DNA of 64,000 nt from a marine actinobacterium MedAcidi-G2B (GTDB taxonomy: Bacteria > Actinomycetota > Acidimicrobiia > Acidimicrobiales > MedAcidi-G1). A model generated the notes under the pieces. The model did no database searches. It was not told where the DNA came from and worked only from the letters and a program-made list of their open reading frames with translations. Shown piece after piece: positions 33,538 to 41,460 of this stretch. Where the stretch lies: assembly GCA_000817115.1 (NCBI GenBank), contig JUEO01000001.1, forward strand, positions 186,001 to 250,000. The letters run 5' to 3'. Every line of letters starts with the position of its first letter. Position 1 is the first letter of the stretch. A program made the position numbers and the translations under genes.

Positions 33538-34731
33538 TTAAATAAGAATCCCAAGTAGCGCGGCTGCTTCAATAAGGTTTGAAGCAGCATTGGGATCTTC
33601 TTCAGCTCCATCAAGCATTTTTCGAGCGAATAAATCAAGTGATTCTCTTGCTCCCCAAGTATCCAGATCGTTATCAAGCGCGTTCCGAATAGAAGTTAGA
33701 AGTGAAGAAGAGTTCGGACCTTTAGAACACAGGGAAGCTTTTATTAGGCGATCAAGCCGTTCAACCCCATCGTGGATATCGTCATCGAACCATTCGAAAC
33801 CTCCACGATAGTGATGCCCCAACAGGGAGAGCCTTACTGCCCGCGGGTCGTATTCACTGCATAAATCTCTCACAAAAACAAGATTGCCAAGAGATTTAGA
33901 CATCTTTGTTCCTTCGTAGGCGACCATGCCCACATGCATCCAATGTCTAGCCAAAGGCTTACCAGTTATTGCCCTACTCTGAGCTTCTTCGCACTCGTGG
34001 TGAGGGAAAATTAGATCATCTCCACCTCCGTGAAGATCAATGGTTTCACCTAGGTCGTTCATCACCATTGCTGAGCATTCAATATGCCAGCCAGGACGAC
34101 CCACTCCAAAAGGAGAATCCCATGAAGGTTCATCGGAGGCTGAAGGCTGCCACAGCACGAAATCAAGGGGATTGCGTTGTCTCGGGTCATCAGGGCGACC
34201 ACCGCGCTCAGCTGCATAGTTTTTCATAGTGTCCTGGTCGTAACCAGAAACAGAACCAAAGGAATCGAAAGTGGAAATATCAAAGAAAGTGATGCCATCT
34301 ACCAAGTAGGTATGCCCTGCTCTCTCAAGTTGGCTAACGAGCTCAACTATTGCATCGATAGATTCTGTGGCTTTCGGCTCAGCGGCTGCCGGTCGCATAT
34401 TCAAATCAGCCATATCTTTTTCGAATTGAGCCATTTCTTGGGCCGCAAGATCCTGATAGTGGATACCTAGTTCTCTAGCTTTAGGAAGAATGGAGTCATC
34501 GACGTCTGTGACATTACGAACCATTCGTACCTCATGGCCAAGATCTTCAAGTCGTCTTATAACTATGTCAAAAGTTAAGTAAGTGAAGGCGTGACCAAGA
34601 TGAGTGGCATCATAAGGGGTAATTCCACAGACGTAAATGCTCGCTGAAGATTCTGGTTTGAATTCTTTTACAGATTGAGATGCCGTGTCGTACAGTTTCA
34701 TAAATCCAACCGAGTTATCACCTTTTGCCAT
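33538..34731 (-). CDS. mshC: Cysteine:1D-myo-inositol 2-amino-2-deoxy-alpha-D-glucopyranoside ligase (mycothiol biosynthesis)
   Basis: Signature YVCGITPYDATHLGHAFTYLTFD (MshC form, vs GPTVYD in CysRS); GWHIECSAM; TKMSKSLGNLVFV; lacks the long CysRS C-terminal region. Confidence 0.9.
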   Translation of the reverse strand: MAKGDNSVGFMKLYDTASQSVKEFKPESSASIYVCGITPYDATHLGHAFTYLTFDIVIRRLEDLGHEVRMVRNVTDVDDSILPKARELGIHYQDLAAQEMAQFEKDMADLNMRPAAAEPKATESIDAIVELVSQLERAGHTYLVDGITFFDISTFDSFGSVSGYDQDTMKNYAAERGGRPDDPRQRNPLDFVLWQPSASDEPSWDSPFGVGRPGWHIECSAMVMNDLGETIDLHGGGDDLIFPHHECEEAQSRAITGKPLARHWMHVGMVAYEGTKMSKSLGNLVFVRDLCSEYDPRAVRLSLLGHHYRGGFEWFDDDIHDGVERLDRLIKASLCSKGPNSSSLLTSIRNALDNDLDTWGARESLDLFARKMLDGAEEDPNAASNLIEAAALLGILI

Positions 34732-34762: not shown

Positions 34763-34839
34763 TGGCGCCCTCGGCAGGAATTGAACCTGCGGCCTACCGC
34801 TTAGGAGGCGGTCGCTCTATCCGACTGAGCTACGAGGGC
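34763..34839 (-). tRNA. tRNA-Arg (anticodon CCT), 3' CCA encoded
   Basis: Minus strand GCCCTCG-TA-GCTC..GAGC-ACCGC CTCCTAA GCGGT-..-GCAGG TTCAATT CCTGC-CGAGGGC-G-CCA: full cloverleaf, loop CTCCTAA gives anticodon CCT. Confidence 0.96.
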
Positions 34840-35015
34840 CAGAATACAAAGACTGCAAAGGTCGCTATTCGTGATTAAAGGCTACAGGTGGGTGTGGTAA
34901 AGAGAATCAAAGCTATTTCTGATGGTGCGAAATTTGTATGTGATAAAGAACACATCTAGCTATAGACGTAACTACTGGAAGATAAAATTAGTCTCAAGAG
35001 TGGAGGCTGAGAGAC

Positions 35016-37961
35016 TTGAATGGCAAAGAAGAAACATCACAAATAATTGATGTAAACGCCCCAGGTTCCCTTCCGTTTGTTGATTTTGAGATTTCAGAAT
35101 TCTCTGAATTGATTCAAGCCACCGAAAGCCTTCACGAATCAGGGCACTGGGCTGTTAGAACACCTGCCGGACCTTTGATTGTTGGATATGACCAAACTCG
35201 AGAAATATTACGCGATTCTTCTTGGATTACTGTTCTTTCTGGTTTAAATACTTTTCAAACAGAAGCGACAATGGACCTTGACCTTGAAGTTTTGGTTGAA
35301 CGAGCACGAGAGTTATTACCTGGTTCTAGTCAGCAGTTACAAATGAGGCCCAATGTTCTCTCTGTAGAAGGAGAAGATCACCGTCGTTTACGAAGATTAG
35401 TGAATTCTTCATTCACTCCCGCTAGCAGCGAATCACTACGACCGTTCATGCATCAGCATGCAACGAATTTACTTGAAGCTTTAAAACAAAAGGGTGGGGG
35501 AGACTTGGTAGAAGAATTTTGCCGACCTTACCCAATACCAATTATTTGTCGATTACTTGGCATAGATGATACTGACCAAGAACAGTTTGGAATGTGGGCT
35601 GACACGATTTTCTCAGCCTTAGATGCAGATGCAAGCGCTGTTTTAGGGCGACTAGAAGACATCTCAGTTGCACAACAAGAACTTGACCACTATGCAACAG
35701 AACTTGTAGCAGATCGAAAAGGTTGCCCACACGCTGACCTCGTAAGTGACTTAGTTCAAGCAAGCTACGAAGAAGACCGTTTAAGCGCCGATGAGCTTGT
35801 GGCAATGATCGAAGCAATCCTTCTTGCTGGAACTGACACGACTAGGAATCAACTCGGATCTCTCCTTGCAGTACTCGCTACACAACCTGATCAGTACCAA
35901 CAATTAAGACAAGACCGATCATTAGTTCCAGCCGCAGTAGAAGAATCACTTCGTTTTATCGGGGCAGTACGAACAACGGCGCGTGTCGCTACTGAAGATT
36001 CTGTAGTTGATGGACTATTTTTTAGAGCCGGCACAACGGTTTTTCTAGGGCTTCATGCTGCGGGATTAGGGCAGCCTGATAGCGGCTTTCAGTTTGACCT
36101 TAATCGTGCGGATCGTGCTCCCCATTTAGCATTCGGTTTAGGCGCACATCACTGCTTAGGAGCAGCTCTTGCGCGTGCTGAACTTCAAGAAGCGTTAAAT
36201 GCATTTTTAGACATTGTCCCCGCTTTCGAACTGTCTTCTCCAGTTTCATGGAAGCCTCTTTCTATGGGCATCTGGGGTCCAGATCAACTTGAGTTTCGAA
36301 TATTAGACAAGCCAAATATTGAAAAACCACCTGATCAATTTGCATTTCAACCAAGCAAGCAAAAAAGATTTTTAAGTAAAGGTACAGCAGCTCCTGATTA
36401 TGAAAATGAGTGGATCCAAGAAGCTGACGAGGTTCGTAAGAAAATCTCTTCCGGGATACCACGTCTCGTTAATGCTCCTTCAATTCCACCTGTTACTCGT
36501 TTAATACATACGACGATTCGATTCGGCTGGGCTCTTTTGAGTTGGAAAATATTAGACCGTAAACTTTCTTCAGAGAAACGAACAGAGTCGCTTTATCGCC
36601 GACTTCGCATTGCGGCGGAACGTCTTGGGCCTACTTATGTGAAATTAGCGCAACTAATTTCTGCTGCTGAAGGAGTGTTTCCTCAAGCTTTAGTTGATGA
36701 ATGCTCGCGATGTCGCGATCAAGCTAAACCTGCTAAATGGTGGAGAGTGAATCGCATAATTAAAAATGATCTTGGAAAAATTGCTGAAGAGTTTCAAAAA
36801 TTTGAGAAAGAGCCGTTCGCAGCCGCATCTATTGCTCAGGTTCACAATGCAATTCTTAATGACGGATCAGATGTTGTAGTTAAAATTCAGAGACCAGCAA
36901 TCCAAAAGAAAGTCGTCCGTGACCTGCAAGTGCTCGCATGGGTTGCGCCTCGGCTAGTCGGACGAATCCCAATAGCAGCACTAGCTAATCCTCCTGCGTT
37001 AGTGCAACTCTTCGCAGAAACAATTTCTGAGGAACTGAATTTTCGTTTAGAAGTGGCAAACTTGTTTGAAATCCGCAGAGCATTAGCCACAGGGAATAAG
37101 AGCCAATGGGTTGTTCCCGATCCGGTTCTGGATATGACAACGAATCGAGTAATTGTCATGTCTCGGGTATCAGGAATTCCTTTAACACGACTTGATTCAG
37201 AACAACTCACAGAAACAGCGGTGCGTAATCTCTTCAGAAATATGGTTGATGGCCTATTAGAAGGAGCAGCCCTTCATGGCATATTCCACGGCGACTTTCA
37301 CGCAGGAAACCTATTCATTCGCGAAGATGGAATAATCGGACTTGTTGACTACGGCATGGTTGGGCGACTGGACCATGATCGGAGACTTTCATTTCTGCGC
37401 TACATAACAAGTCTTATGTCGGGAGATGTGCAAGCCCAAGTTCTTGCTGTGCGAGATTTAGGGGCGTTCCCGCCTGAAACTGATGTAAGTGATCTCATAG
37501 AAAAACTCCAGTTAGACCGAGTTGACTTCGATCCACTCCAACTTACAGAAGAACAATTTATTTCAGAATTTCAGGGACTTTTAAAAGAACTTCTCGCTAG
37601 TGGTGCTCGAATACCCAAAGAACTTATGCTTTTCGTCAAAAATTTTGCTTATCTCGCTTCTTTCGTTCAGAAAATAGATCCAGATATGGATTTACTAGAA
37701 GAGTTCTCAACAATAAGCTCAGGGTTCTTAACAAAGCATGGATTCAGAGTCTCCGCTGAGCTTGGACTTGGGGTAAACGACCTTCAGGTCTCCCAGGCAT
37801 CATTTAGGCGTGCTGCTGGAATAAAAGATGACGTTGAAGAACTTACTTGGCGTGATCTCACAGAACGTAGAGATGCGATGGCCAGCCGTCTACTGCCTCC
37901 GAATTCAAGCATTCGGGCCCATATTCTAGATGGTGAGAAAACTTCAGAAATAAGTGAATAG
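35016..37961 (+). CDS. Cytochrome P450 - UbiB/ABC1 (ADCK) atypical kinase fusion protein
   Basis: Single 981-aa ORF. P450: AGTDTTRNQ I-helix, EESLRF (ExxR), FGLGAHHCLGAALARAE heme loop. UbiB: RLGPTYVKLAQLIS (KxGQ-like), FAAASIAQVHNA, VVVKIQRP, EELNFRLEVANL, HGDFHAGNLFIREDGIIGLVDYGMVG. SD GGAGG 9 nt before TTG start. Confidence 0.93.
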   Translation: MNGKEETSQIIDVNAPGSLPFVDFEISEFSELIQATESLHESGHWAVRTPAGPLIVGYDQTREILRDSSWITVLSGLNTFQTEATMDLDLEVLVERARELLPGSSQQLQMRPNVLSVEGEDHRRLRRLVNSSFTPASSESLRPFMHQHATNLLEALKQKGGGDLVEEFCRPYPIPIICRLLGIDDTDQEQFGMWADTIFSALDADASAVLGRLEDISVAQQELDHYATELVADRKGCPHADLVSDLVQASYEEDRLSADELVAMIEAILLAGTDTTRNQLGSLLAVLATQPDQYQQLRQDRSLVPAAVEESLRFIGAVRTTARVATEDSVVDGLFFRAGTTVFLGLHAAGLGQPDSGFQFDLNRADRAPHLAFGLGAHHCLGAALARAELQEALNAFLDIVPAFELSSPVSWKPLSMGIWGPDQLEFRILDKPNIEKPPDQFAFQPSKQKRFLSKGTAAPDYENEWIQEADEVRKKISSGIPRLVNAPSIPPVTRLIHTTIRFGWALLSWKILDRKLSSEKRTESLYRRLRIAAERLGPTYVKLAQLISAAEGVFPQALVDECSRCRDQAKPAKWWRVNRIIKNDLGKIAEEFQKFEKEPFAAASIAQVHNAILNDGSDVVVKIQRPAIQKKVVRDLQVLAWVAPRLVGRIPIAALANPPALVQLFAETISEELNFRLEVANLFEIRRALATGNKSQWVVPDPVLDMTTNRVIVMSRVSGIPLTRLDSEQLTETAVRNLFRNMVDGLLEGAALHGIFHGDFHAGNLFIREDGIIGLVDYGMVGRLDHDRRLSFLRYITSLMSGDVQAQVLAVRDLGAFPPETDVSDLIEKLQLDRVDFDPLQLTEEQFISEFQGLLKELLASGARIPKELMLFVKNFAYLASFVQKIDPDMDLLEEFSTISSGFLTKHGFRVSAELGLGVNDLQVSQASFRRAAGIKDDVEELTWRDLTERRDAMASRLLPPNSSIRAHILDGEKTSEISE

Positions 37962-38658: not shown

Positions 38659-40167
38659 TCAGAGGGTTCCGTCGTCAAGGTGAAACAGTACTTCTGAAGC
38701 TCTATTGCGGACCTCATCAAGATTCGAAAGCCTTCTTAATCCAGCATATTGTTGACCCATCCGCGGATTGTTAGAAAGTTTATTTTCGTTCCTGGCAAGA
38801 AAATCCCAATACAAAGTAGTAAAAGGGCAGGCTAATTCTCCACTACGTTTTTTAGGATCATAAATGCAATCCGAACAGTAGTTGCTCATTCTATTTATGT
38901 AAGCTCCACCAGAGGCATAGGGTTTTGTTGCCATTTTCCCGCCATCAGCGTGAACAGCCATTCCTAAAACATTTGGCAGCATGACCCATTCTGCGCCATC
39001 AATAAAACGAGACCACATCCAATTAATTACACCCTGCGGATTTAACCCACTAGTTAAAGAGAGATTTCCAAAAACCATAAGTCTTTCAATGTGGTGCGTA
39101 TACGCATACTCATACAAGTGGTCCATAGCTCCACTAATGCATGCCATTTCTGTAGCATCTTTTTCTAAAAAAGCAGGAGGCACTTCTCGATTGACTTCTA
39201 AATAATTTGAGTTCCTATATTCCGGCATCCAAAGCCAGTACAAGCCCCAGACGTATTCCCGCCATCCAATTATTTGTCTAATAAAACCTTCGACGCTGTT
39301 AATTGGAGCATTACCATCATGATAAGAAAATTCGGCTGCTGCGACCAACTCACTGGGATGTAATAGTCCAATATTTAATGAGGAGCTAAGAACTGAGTGT
39401 GCTAATTTCCATTCTTGGCTGAGCATTGCATCTTCATATGGTCCAAATATTGGTAAAGCGCCATGGATAAACTCATCTAATCGAATTAGAGCCTGTTCTC
39501 TTGTTACGGGCCAGATTCCTTTTGGAACTGCCCCCCAAGCATTACCCAAACTACTTAAAATCTCTTTATCAATTTGATCATGAGTGAATAATTTAACCTC
39601 TGGCCATTTGCGACCATCTCGAGGAGGCCGTTCACGGTTTTCATGATCAAAATTCCATTTTCCACCAATTGGAGAATCTCCGTCCATTAGAACCTTTAGC
39701 CGTTTACGCTGCCAACGGTAAAAATCTTCCATTTTAAATGACTTACGAGAGCCTACCCATCCTGCAAAATCTTCATAATGGCAGAGGAACTGATTGTTTC
39801 TTATGATTTTGAGGCCACATTTCTCAGCAATCTTTTGACCATTCCAATTCATTGGCTCCATCACAACAATTTCTTCTGGCATAAATTCTTTCGAGTGCTC
39901 AGTGATGCCGGTAACTAAATCCTTTGAAACCCGATAATCGACTTCAAAACCCTCTTGCCGAAGTTCGTCAGCAAAATGTCGCATTGCAGAAAGAATCAAA
40001 TGAGCTTTCTGAATATGCCATTGATTAGAATCAAATTTTTTCTCAATTTCAACCATAAGAATTCGAGCGGTAGAAGGGGATTGGCCAACAAGAGAAGAAA
40101 TATTCCTATTGATCTGATCTCCCATAACAAGAATGGTTGGTTTTTTTGCGTGCGTTTTAAGTGTCAT
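38659..40167 (-). CDS. Cryptochrome/photolyase family protein, FeS-BCP ((6-4) photolyase-like) group
   Basis: ILVMGDQINRN; HHIERLMVFGNLSLTSGLNPQGVINWMWSRFIDGAEWVMLPNVLGMAVHADGG; Cys at MACISGAM, YCSDC and ACPF fit the 4Fe-4S ligand set. Confidence 0.9.
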   Translation of the reverse strand: MTLKTHAKKPTILVMGDQINRNISSLVGQSPSTARILMVEIEKKFDSNQWHIQKAHLILSAMRHFADELRQEGFEVDYRVSKDLVTGITEHSKEFMPEEIVVMEPMNWNGQKIAEKCGLKIIRNNQFLCHYEDFAGWVGSRKSFKMEDFYRWQRKRLKVLMDGDSPIGGKWNFDHENRERPPRDGRKWPEVKLFTHDQIDKEILSSLGNAWGAVPKGIWPVTREQALIRLDEFIHGALPIFGPYEDAMLSQEWKLAHSVLSSSLNIGLLHPSELVAAAEFSYHDGNAPINSVEGFIRQIIGWREYVWGLYWLWMPEYRNSNYLEVNREVPPAFLEKDATEMACISGAMDHLYEYAYTHHIERLMVFGNLSLTSGLNPQGVINWMWSRFIDGAEWVMLPNVLGMAVHADGGKMATKPYASGGAYINRMSNYCSDCIYDPKKRSGELACPFTTLYWDFLARNENKLSNNPRMGQQYAGLRRLSNLDEVRNRASEVLFHLDDGTL

Positions 40168-40285
40168 TGTGTTCTAACCTGATGAATTTAAATGTAAGAC
40201 AGCCCGTCAGAAATTATGCTGTTACCAATCGTTAAATCTGTCACATGCTGCTGACCTAAATAATCATCTCGGTACATTACAGAAC

Positions 40286-40699
40286 GTGACCATCGCATAT
40301 ATTCATTTCATATCAACAGTTTTTATGGCAGGAATCATTTGGTTCGTGCAAATTGTGCACTACCCCCTCTTCCACAGGGTAGGTGAAAACGAATCAAGAT
40401 CTTATGCCTCTGAGCATCAGAAAAGAACTTCCTGGGTAGTTGGGTTTCCGATGCTGGCAGAGGGAGTAACTACATTATGGCTTTTCTTTGACCCTGTGAA
40501 TGGTCGACTTCTCCCTATCATTGGGGGTTTAATCCTGCTAAAAGTTCATTTGTCGACAGTTTTTCTTCAAGTTCCAAAACATTCACTACTAATTAACAGC
40601 CACACATTTGATGTTATTAACGCATTAATCAAAACTAATTGGATTCGAACAATCGGCTGGTCTTCGCGATCAGTTATTGCACTAATGATTATTTTGTAA
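40286..40699 (+). CDS. Small integral membrane protein (about 4 TM), family unassigned
   Basis: Hydrophobic segments across 137 aa (MTIAYIHFISTVFMAGIIWFVQIVHYPLF...LLPIIGGLILLKVHLSTVFL...); GTG start 7 nt after TACATT. Confidence 0.7.
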   Translation: MTIAYIHFISTVFMAGIIWFVQIVHYPLFHRVGENESRSYASEHQKRTSWVVGFPMLAEGVTTLWLFFDPVNGRLLPIIGGLILLKVHLSTVFLQVPKHSLLINSHTFDVINALIKTNWIRTIGWSSRSVIALMIIL

Positions 40700-40701
40700 C
40701 A

Positions 40702-41460
40702 ATGAGTCAACTTCTTTCAAATTCTTGTCCAGTAAAAATTAAAAGGGCAGTAATGGTTCAAAATTGGATAGATCTTGTTTTTCTTCACTGGCGGTACCCA
40801 GTAGATACTGTTGCGAAGCTACTTCCTGAAGGAATTGAAGTTGAAACGTTTGATGGTGATGCATGGGTTGGCTTAATTCCTTTTCAAATGGACGATTTAG
40901 GATTTCCAATGATGCATCCATTGCCCCATGTTGGGTCTTTTCCCGAGGTTAATGTTCGGACATACGTTAAATGCGGTGAAAAGTCAGGAGTATGGTTTTT
41001 CTCCCTGGATATAAACAAGATCATTCCAACCTTAACCGCAAGAACTGTTTATAAAATTCCGTATTGCTATGGAAAAGTTAGCCATACCAGCGTTGGAAAT
41101 TACGTCACAACTAAAGCGATGCGAAGATGGCCCACTCGAGATCTTCAATCAAACATCGTTATTGAAAAACAAGAAAAAACCGATGGCAATTTAGAACGGT
41201 TTTTAACAGCACGTTGGGGTTTGATTGCACAATCCCCAACAAAGAATTTTATATGGGCGCCTATTGACCACCCGCCTTGGTCTTTGTATAAAGCCAAATT
41301 GCATCATCTTAAAGATGAGTTCATTGAAGCTGCTGGTCTGCCCAAACCCGTTGGGGAACCCCATGTGATGTATTCACCTGGTGTGCCAGTACGAATAGGG
41401 TTACCAAAGAAATTGAGTCCTTCTATCTACCGAGACGAGATAGGGCTTCAAGCTCGTTAA
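40702..41460 (+). CDS. YqjF family (DUF2071) protein
   Basis: VFLHWRYPVDTVAKLLPEGIEVETFDGDAWVGLIPFQM; FPEVNVRTYV; GVWFFSLDI; ATG at 40702 preferred over 40639. Confidence 0.88.
   Translation: MSQLLSNSCPVKIKRAVMVQNWIDLVFLHWRYPVDTVAKLLPEGIEVETFDGDAWVGLIPFQMDDLGFPMMHPLPHVGSFPEVNVRTYVKCGEKSGVWFFSLDINKIIPTLTARTVYKIPYCYGKVSHTSVGNYVTTKAMRRWPTRDLQSNIVIEKQEKTDGNLERFLTARWGLIAQSPTKNFIWAPIDHPPWSLYKAKLHHLKDEFIEAAGLPKPVGEPHVMYSPGVPVRIGLPKKLSPSIYRDEIGLQAR

Follow-up and report, generated by a model that had tools for sequence, protein, structure and literature searches.

Within a 64,000-nucleotide stretch of the genome of the marine actinobacterium MedAcidi-G2B (the window), one gene encodes both a cytochrome P450 and a UbiB/ABC1 domain, which raises the question of whether such a joined protein is real and, if so, what it does. 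The role that UbiB/COQ8 proteins play for oxygenases is itself a long-standing open question, with substrate extraction, a chaperone function and a kinase function each under consideration. Where a UbiB domain is covalently tied to a monooxygenase and the cell has no other UbiB, this role becomes testable within one soluble-type polypeptide. No literature on a P450-UbiB/ABC1 fusion was found, subscription papers lying outside the coverage, and a study in which the P450s of the window's family are counted mentions neither UbiB nor a fusion (PMC10205998).

One chain with two intact domains

The sequence-only reading had described a single uninterrupted frame of 981 residues with the motifs of both domains intact. 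Analysis of the open reading frame and of Pfam matches bears out this frame, its coordinates and its domain limits (Table 1). GGAGG lies nine bases 5' of the TTG start, PF00067 (p450) matches residues 104-398 (E 9e-25) and PF03109 (ABC1) matches residues 566-807 (E 7.5e-55), both far over the cut-off. GC3 is similar in the two halves (0.29 and 0.33). All of the claimed P450 and UbiB motifs were located in the fusion, and the catalytic motifs of both halves are retained throughout the fused orthologs. The I-helix acid-alcohol pair, ExxR and heme-Cys loop that characterize the P450 superfamily are present in all aligned fused orthologs, and the PF03109 match with its A-rich loop, lysine, HGDxHxGN and D[FY]G assigns the other half to the ABC1/UbiB family. 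Inspection of individual positions reveals that the window copy departs slightly from its orthologs, with ExN versus ExD in most and DYG versus DFG in many. At the KxGQ site the fusion has KLAQ, as do some unfused relatives; other relatives have KLGQ.

Table 1. Coordinates of the fusion gene, its domains and motifs, and neighboring or related loci.
Feature	Position	Strand	Remarks
P450-UbiB fusion gene	35016..37961	+	981 aa; TTG start at 35016; GGAGG at 35002-35006
P450 domain	35073..36290	+	residues 20-425; PF00067 and alignment
I-helix motif AGTDTT	35826..35843	+	residues 271-276; conserved
ExxR motif ESLR	35943..35954	+	residues 310-313
Heme-cysteine loop FGLGAHHCLG	36132..36161	+	residues 373-382
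Linker	36291..36401	+	residues 426-462, ~37 residues; length kept, sequence not
UbiB/ABC1 region	36402..37895	+	residues 463-960; alignable with unfused acidimicrobial UbiB proteins
KLAQ (KxGQ-like) motif	36642..36653	+	residues 543-546
A-rich loop AAAS	36819..36830	+	residues 602-605
Kinase-fold lysine K623 (VVVK)	36882..36884	+	
HGDFHAGN motif	37287..37310	+	residues 758-765
DYG (DFG-like) motif	37347..37355	+	residues 778-780
tRNA-Arg (CCT)	34763..34839	-	directly upstream of fusion; context, outside enzyme
Photolyase-related protein (PF04244)	38659..40167	-	near fusion in 3/5 carrier genomes of the window's genus
Small protein, no Pfam match	40286..40699	+	travels with photolyase-related gene
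DUF2071 protein	40639..41460	+	travels with photolyase-related gene
Unfused P450 beside UbiB-family gene	L171, L183 (G062), L178 (G092), L202 (G003)		other Acidimicrobiales

An AlphaFold2 model of the fusion, generated from a shallow alignment of 25 sequences, is of moderate confidence (pLDDT 71, pTM 0.69). Foldseek matches to solved P450s (target TM 0.72-0.80, 27-35% identity) support the P450 fold; when the whole model was used, the best 50 matches were all P450s and added nothing on the UbiB half. A pseudo-P450, comparable to the P450-derived glycosyltransferase activators, is excluded by the conserved heme Cys, ExxR and acid-alcohol pair. The UbiB half falls short of the TIGR01982 UbiB equivalog of ubiquinone biosynthesis (255.9 versus a cut-off of 487.6 bits), and identity as a classical ubiquinone UbiB was rejected on this basis. 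No clear membrane-spanning segment is present in the fusion protein, whose contact with the membrane is assumed.

Domain searches of the chain gave P450 and kinase-clan matches only, with neither a reductase nor a ferredoxin domain. That is to say, the fused redox domain of a self-sufficient, BM3-like P450 is absent, and the protein is not the 'self-contained' hydroxylation machine first proposed because it carries no redox partner. Known P450 fusions include the P450-reductase CYP102/BM3 and P450-RhF, which likewise combine a P450 and a partner domain in one chain; there the partner is an electron donor, whereas here it is an ATPase/lipid-type protein. Soluble class I CYP107-type P450s (OleP, AurH, PikC, P450BioI) share the full P450 fold and catalytic motifs but lack the C-terminal UbiB extension, and the closest unfused relatives of the fusion (about 40-46% identity) are uncharacterised Acidimicrobiales P450s. 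With the UbiB/COQ8/ABC1 (ADCK) kinases, including COQ8A (4ped, 5i35), mycobacterial 5yjz and 7cy2, the fusion has in common the A-rich loop, lysine, HGDxHxGN, D[FY]G and KxGQ-like motifs. It differs from them in the attached P450, in KLAQ for KxGQ and in having no clear membrane-spanning segment.

Conservation, origin and distribution of the fused gene

The searches yielded 46 fused orthologs of full length, among which 38 are distinct. They stem from independent SAGs and MAGs of Acidimicrobiales that are mostly marine by the provenance in their titles. Because these orthologs come from independent assemblies, an assembly join or frameshift is ruled out as the source of the fusion. The sequence-only reading would have counted orthologs that are always unfused and unlinked against itself, and the opposite was found. 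Across the orthologs, identity to the window protein ranges from 99 to 54% for the P450 half and from 97 to 54% for the UbiB half. The two halves diverge at an equal rate, while the linker drifts in sequence at constant length (5-38% identity between lineages; 35-41 residues in the aligned span). No re-split of the two domains was seen in any lineage searched. Individual sequences show irregularities: the L062 locus consists of two overlapping frames that look like an assembly frameshift, and the L061 ortholog has ~110 extra residues within the UbiB domain near query residue 637, which may be an assembly artefact.

Quick maximum-likelihood trees were used to place each half. All fused P450s fall into a single clade (SH-aLRT 99), whose neighbors are unfused P450s of Acidimicrobiales (about 40-46% identity). 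The fused UbiB domains likewise group together in one clade (SH-aLRT 99), which is related to the free-standing UbiB of 530 aa found in Acidimicrobiales. Because each half is a single clade and the two trees give largely the same groups, the simplest reading is that the fusion probably arose once and was then inherited jointly. The join itself is ancient and conserved.

Inspection of UbiB content reveals the fusion to be the sole strong PF03109 protein in the 19 genomes listed, 18 of which carry the fusion or part of it, with the exception of G258 (a 282-aa contig-end PF03109 fragment) and G295 (a second fusion copy). Within the window's family (48 genomes), PF03109 matches above 100 bits all fall in frames of 783-1025 aa that represent the fusion, except in G303, where a 466-aa PF03109 protein lies on a contig with the only phytoene synthase hit. 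This contig is probably a contaminant. The UbiB in question (L137, G303:C27) is 26% identical, and the phytoene synthase on the same contig is the sole such hit among the fusion genomes.

The distribution of the fusion is patchy. Many complete relatives are without any UbiB, for example G055 and G129 of the same genus (95-96% complete), and the function is therefore accessory. No fusion was found outside Acidimicrobiales among 398 genomes drawn across the phylum (E <= 1e-130) and none on plasmids; the genome-wide scan relied on peptide patterns taken from a single sequence, which distant fusions could escape. Genera g1 and g174 carry the fusion in 10 of 17 genomes versus 3 of 31 in the other genera of the family (Fisher p = 0.0005, shared ancestry ignored). 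MedAcidi-G1 is a photic-zone genus (PMC10205998), and there is a hint of a link between the fusion and depth. Rhodopsin proved uninformative as an independent photic marker, occurring in 3 of 48 family genomes, all of one genus. Rhodopsin genes (PF01036) are present in G300 and G307; G300, an incomplete genome, has no PF00494 match, and its retinal precursors may come from outside.

Light-type gene clusters around the orthologs

The CarH-like light context is the most telling clue on the fusion. It is new here, and it was invisible in the window because the copy there is without LitR. In several lineages the fusion is linked in operons to a CarH/LitR-like regulator of the B12-photoreceptor type and to light and lipid genes. 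The ortholog cluster comprises a PF01593 FAD amine oxidase/desaturase-like gene, the fusion, the regulator, an NmrA-DUF2867 gene and a DUF1295 gene; genes for an acyltransferase and a photolyase lie on the other strand. The regulator is directly 3' of the fusion in 18 ortholog loci, with a 4-nt overlap between the two genes in at least 8. It contains HTH_17 and two B12-binding domains, and its best PDB matches are Thermus thermophilus CarH structures. The W...EH and ExH (ligand His) positions align with CarH and are conserved in 18/18 aligned sequences, one of which comes from a fusion-less genome. An adjacent HTH and B12-binding regulator with its key residues kept, as in CarH/LitR light operons, is present in the 18 ortholog loci. 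Because the regulator falls below the cut-off of the NF052513 CarH equivalog (70.2 versus 400 bits), it is classed by sequence as CarH-like rather than CarH.

A second arrangement occurs in genus g174 (member G300), where the fusion is found beside a photolyase, an F420-dependent PPOX-class protein, an amine oxidase, DUF1295 and DUF2867; gene order differs and LitR is absent. This second arrangement argues against passive hitch-hiking. At 17 loci of unfused UbiB orthologs, neither a P450 nor any of these light-cluster genes is nearby. In lineages f27-g30 and f60-g63 the fusion has other surroundings, with no light cluster. A fusion-less genome (L187, G316:C68) holds a LitR-DUF2867-DUF1295 module with a photolyase and a PPOX-class gene, and two other genes occupy the place expected for the fusion.

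A regulator of this domain type is likewise associated with photolyase, SDR, FAD oxidoreductase and lipid enzymes in LitR/CarH (PplR) regulons, taken together with the furan-fatty-acid genes ufaM/ufaD/ufaO. In Pseudomonas, phrB (photolyase) and ufaM are among the LitR/PplR genes induced by light, and the pmlR1 region contributes an SDR as well as an FAD oxidoreductase (PMC9758184). In R. sphaeroides, the FAD desaturase UfaD and the O2-using oxygenase UfaO act in turn on phospholipid acyl chains (PMC7380195). By analogy, the Pseudomonas LitR genes and Rhodobacter UfaD/UfaO provide a precedent for light-regulated lipid oxidation. In contrast to the ufa genes, no UfaM or UfaO counterpart is present among the annotated cluster genes, and the oxygenase would be the P450-UbiB fusion.

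In the window, the fusion is flanked by tRNA-Arg/MshC/CysS on one side and a YbaK-type editing protein on the other, beyond which lie the photolyase-related gene (PF04244), a small protein and DUF2071. This three-gene block (38659-41460) is present or absent as a unit beside the fusion in the window's genus; the listed start of DUF2071 overlaps the previous gene, and its true start is probably later. The MshC-like cysteine ligase of the mycothiol route (33538-34731), beside CysS, scores 433.6 versus a cut-off of 485.1 bits. LitR was not found near the fusion or elsewhere in the window's genome, which is 85% complete; the best hit has 25% identity (E 2.6e-5) and its HTH part is missing. In both trees, the window copy nests among LitR-operon copies of another family (L004, L037), so it probably descends from a copy in a LitR operon, and the fusion is likely to have moved between families. 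We infer that the window copy serves the same pathway.

Proposed function and competing explanations

We consider it an even call that the fusion is a bifunctional lipid oxygenase of single origin acting in the light/photo-oxidative stress response of marine Acidimicrobiales, with UbiB delivering membrane lipid to the P450. The UbiB domain, an atypical kinase-fold ATPase, would dock on the membrane, bind ATP and lift a hydrophobic lipid from it. The P450 domain tethered to it, receiving electrons from a separate ferredoxin system, would then insert oxygen into the lifted lipid, thereby taking the oxygenase role in light-linked lipid oxidation and probably serving to remodel or protect membrane lipids under light or photo-oxidative stress. 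Light would induce the operon, the substrate would be a lipid, and UbiB would hand it over to the P450. For COQ8, ATPase activity has been proposed to be coupled to extraction of hydrophobic precursors (PMC8346625). Candidate substrates would be menaquinone, another isoprenoid or an acyl chain; the window's family is reported to make menaquinol (PMC10205998). CYP128 of M. tuberculosis, on the menaquinone-9 route (PMC7404182), is comparable by role as a P450 implicated in isoprenoid-quinone modification; unlike the fusion, it is unfused.

A lipid-directed P450-UbiB pair had been proposed from the window alone, and it gains support from the genes that accompany the fusion in ortholog operons, namely DUF1295, DUF2867, an acyltransferase and an FAD desaturase-like enzyme. 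Architecture, intact motifs and lipid-directed pairing of that interpretation stand; 'self-contained' is given up, and presentation of the substrate by UbiB stays a conjecture. The CarH-like context also gives an indication of the conditions of use, and suggests that abundant marine actinobacteria have a light-linked lipid pathway not described before. The fuller picture, in which an ATP-driven lipid-lifting domain covalently feeds a P450 under a B12-sensed light switch in the photic ocean and the oxidised membrane lipid or quinone is photoprotective, is tentative and somewhat on the doubtful side. If true, it would be a new class of P450 system, in which the partnership of UbiB with an oxygenase, as suspected for ubiquinone biosynthesis, has become covalent.

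The same chain could instead oxidise a hydrophobic foreign compound, such as an algal allelochemical or a polyketide-like molecule, captured by the UbiB domain. Detoxification would fit the patchy distribution, the nearest solved P450s (OleP, AurH, PikC and other polyketide/macrolide hydroxylases), the nearest solved ABC1 protein (5yjz, a mycobacterial ATP-binding protein) and a weak match of the UbiB fusion to the NCBIfam macrolide-binding ATPase MABP-1 (88.8 bits, cut-off 800). CYP107-type matches are, however, what soluble actinobacterial P450s most often give, and they carry little substrate information, and the conserved CarH/LitR-like, photolyase, DUF1295, DUF2867 and acyltransferase neighbors point to endogenous lipids and light; we regard detoxification as rather unlikely. 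Quite unlikely is a UbiB half that regulates or supports the P450 without delivering substrate, through phosphorylation, ATP-dependent folding or a bound quinol as electron source. Such a role is consistent with a kinase fold with intact ATP-site motifs and with the absence of a redox-partner domain from the chain, but we know of no precedent for quinol-driven P450s. The COQ8 fold, moreover, occludes protein substrates (PMC8346625). A hydroxylase of carotenoids, hopanoids or sterols is highly improbable. CYP175A1 lies in a light-linked carotenoid region of Thermus, and a P450 with a desaturase-like FAD enzyme beside a CarH-like regulator recalls that setting; yet PF00494 (phytoene/squalene synthase) is absent from 26/27 fusion genomes, its one hit being on the probable contaminant contig, so that carotenoid, squalene and hopanoid substrates are unlikely.

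Distinctly unlikely, too, is a fusion of convenience, in which two enzymes of one regulon share a chain and do not act on the same molecule. The fast-evolving linker and the differing neighbors in some lineages would be expected of it, whereas the lack of any re-split lineage speaks against it, as do unfused genes that suggest a working pair. A UbiB-family gene is found within about 3 kb of an unfused sister P450 at 3/19 loci in two genomes (G062 twice, G092), and another P450 adjoins a UbiB gene in G003. Chance proximity is ~1% per locus by a rough estimate. At one G062 locus the UbiB-family gene is directly downstream of the sister P450 on the same strand, an arrangement that, with the others, is suggestive of a working P450-UbiB pair outside the fusion.
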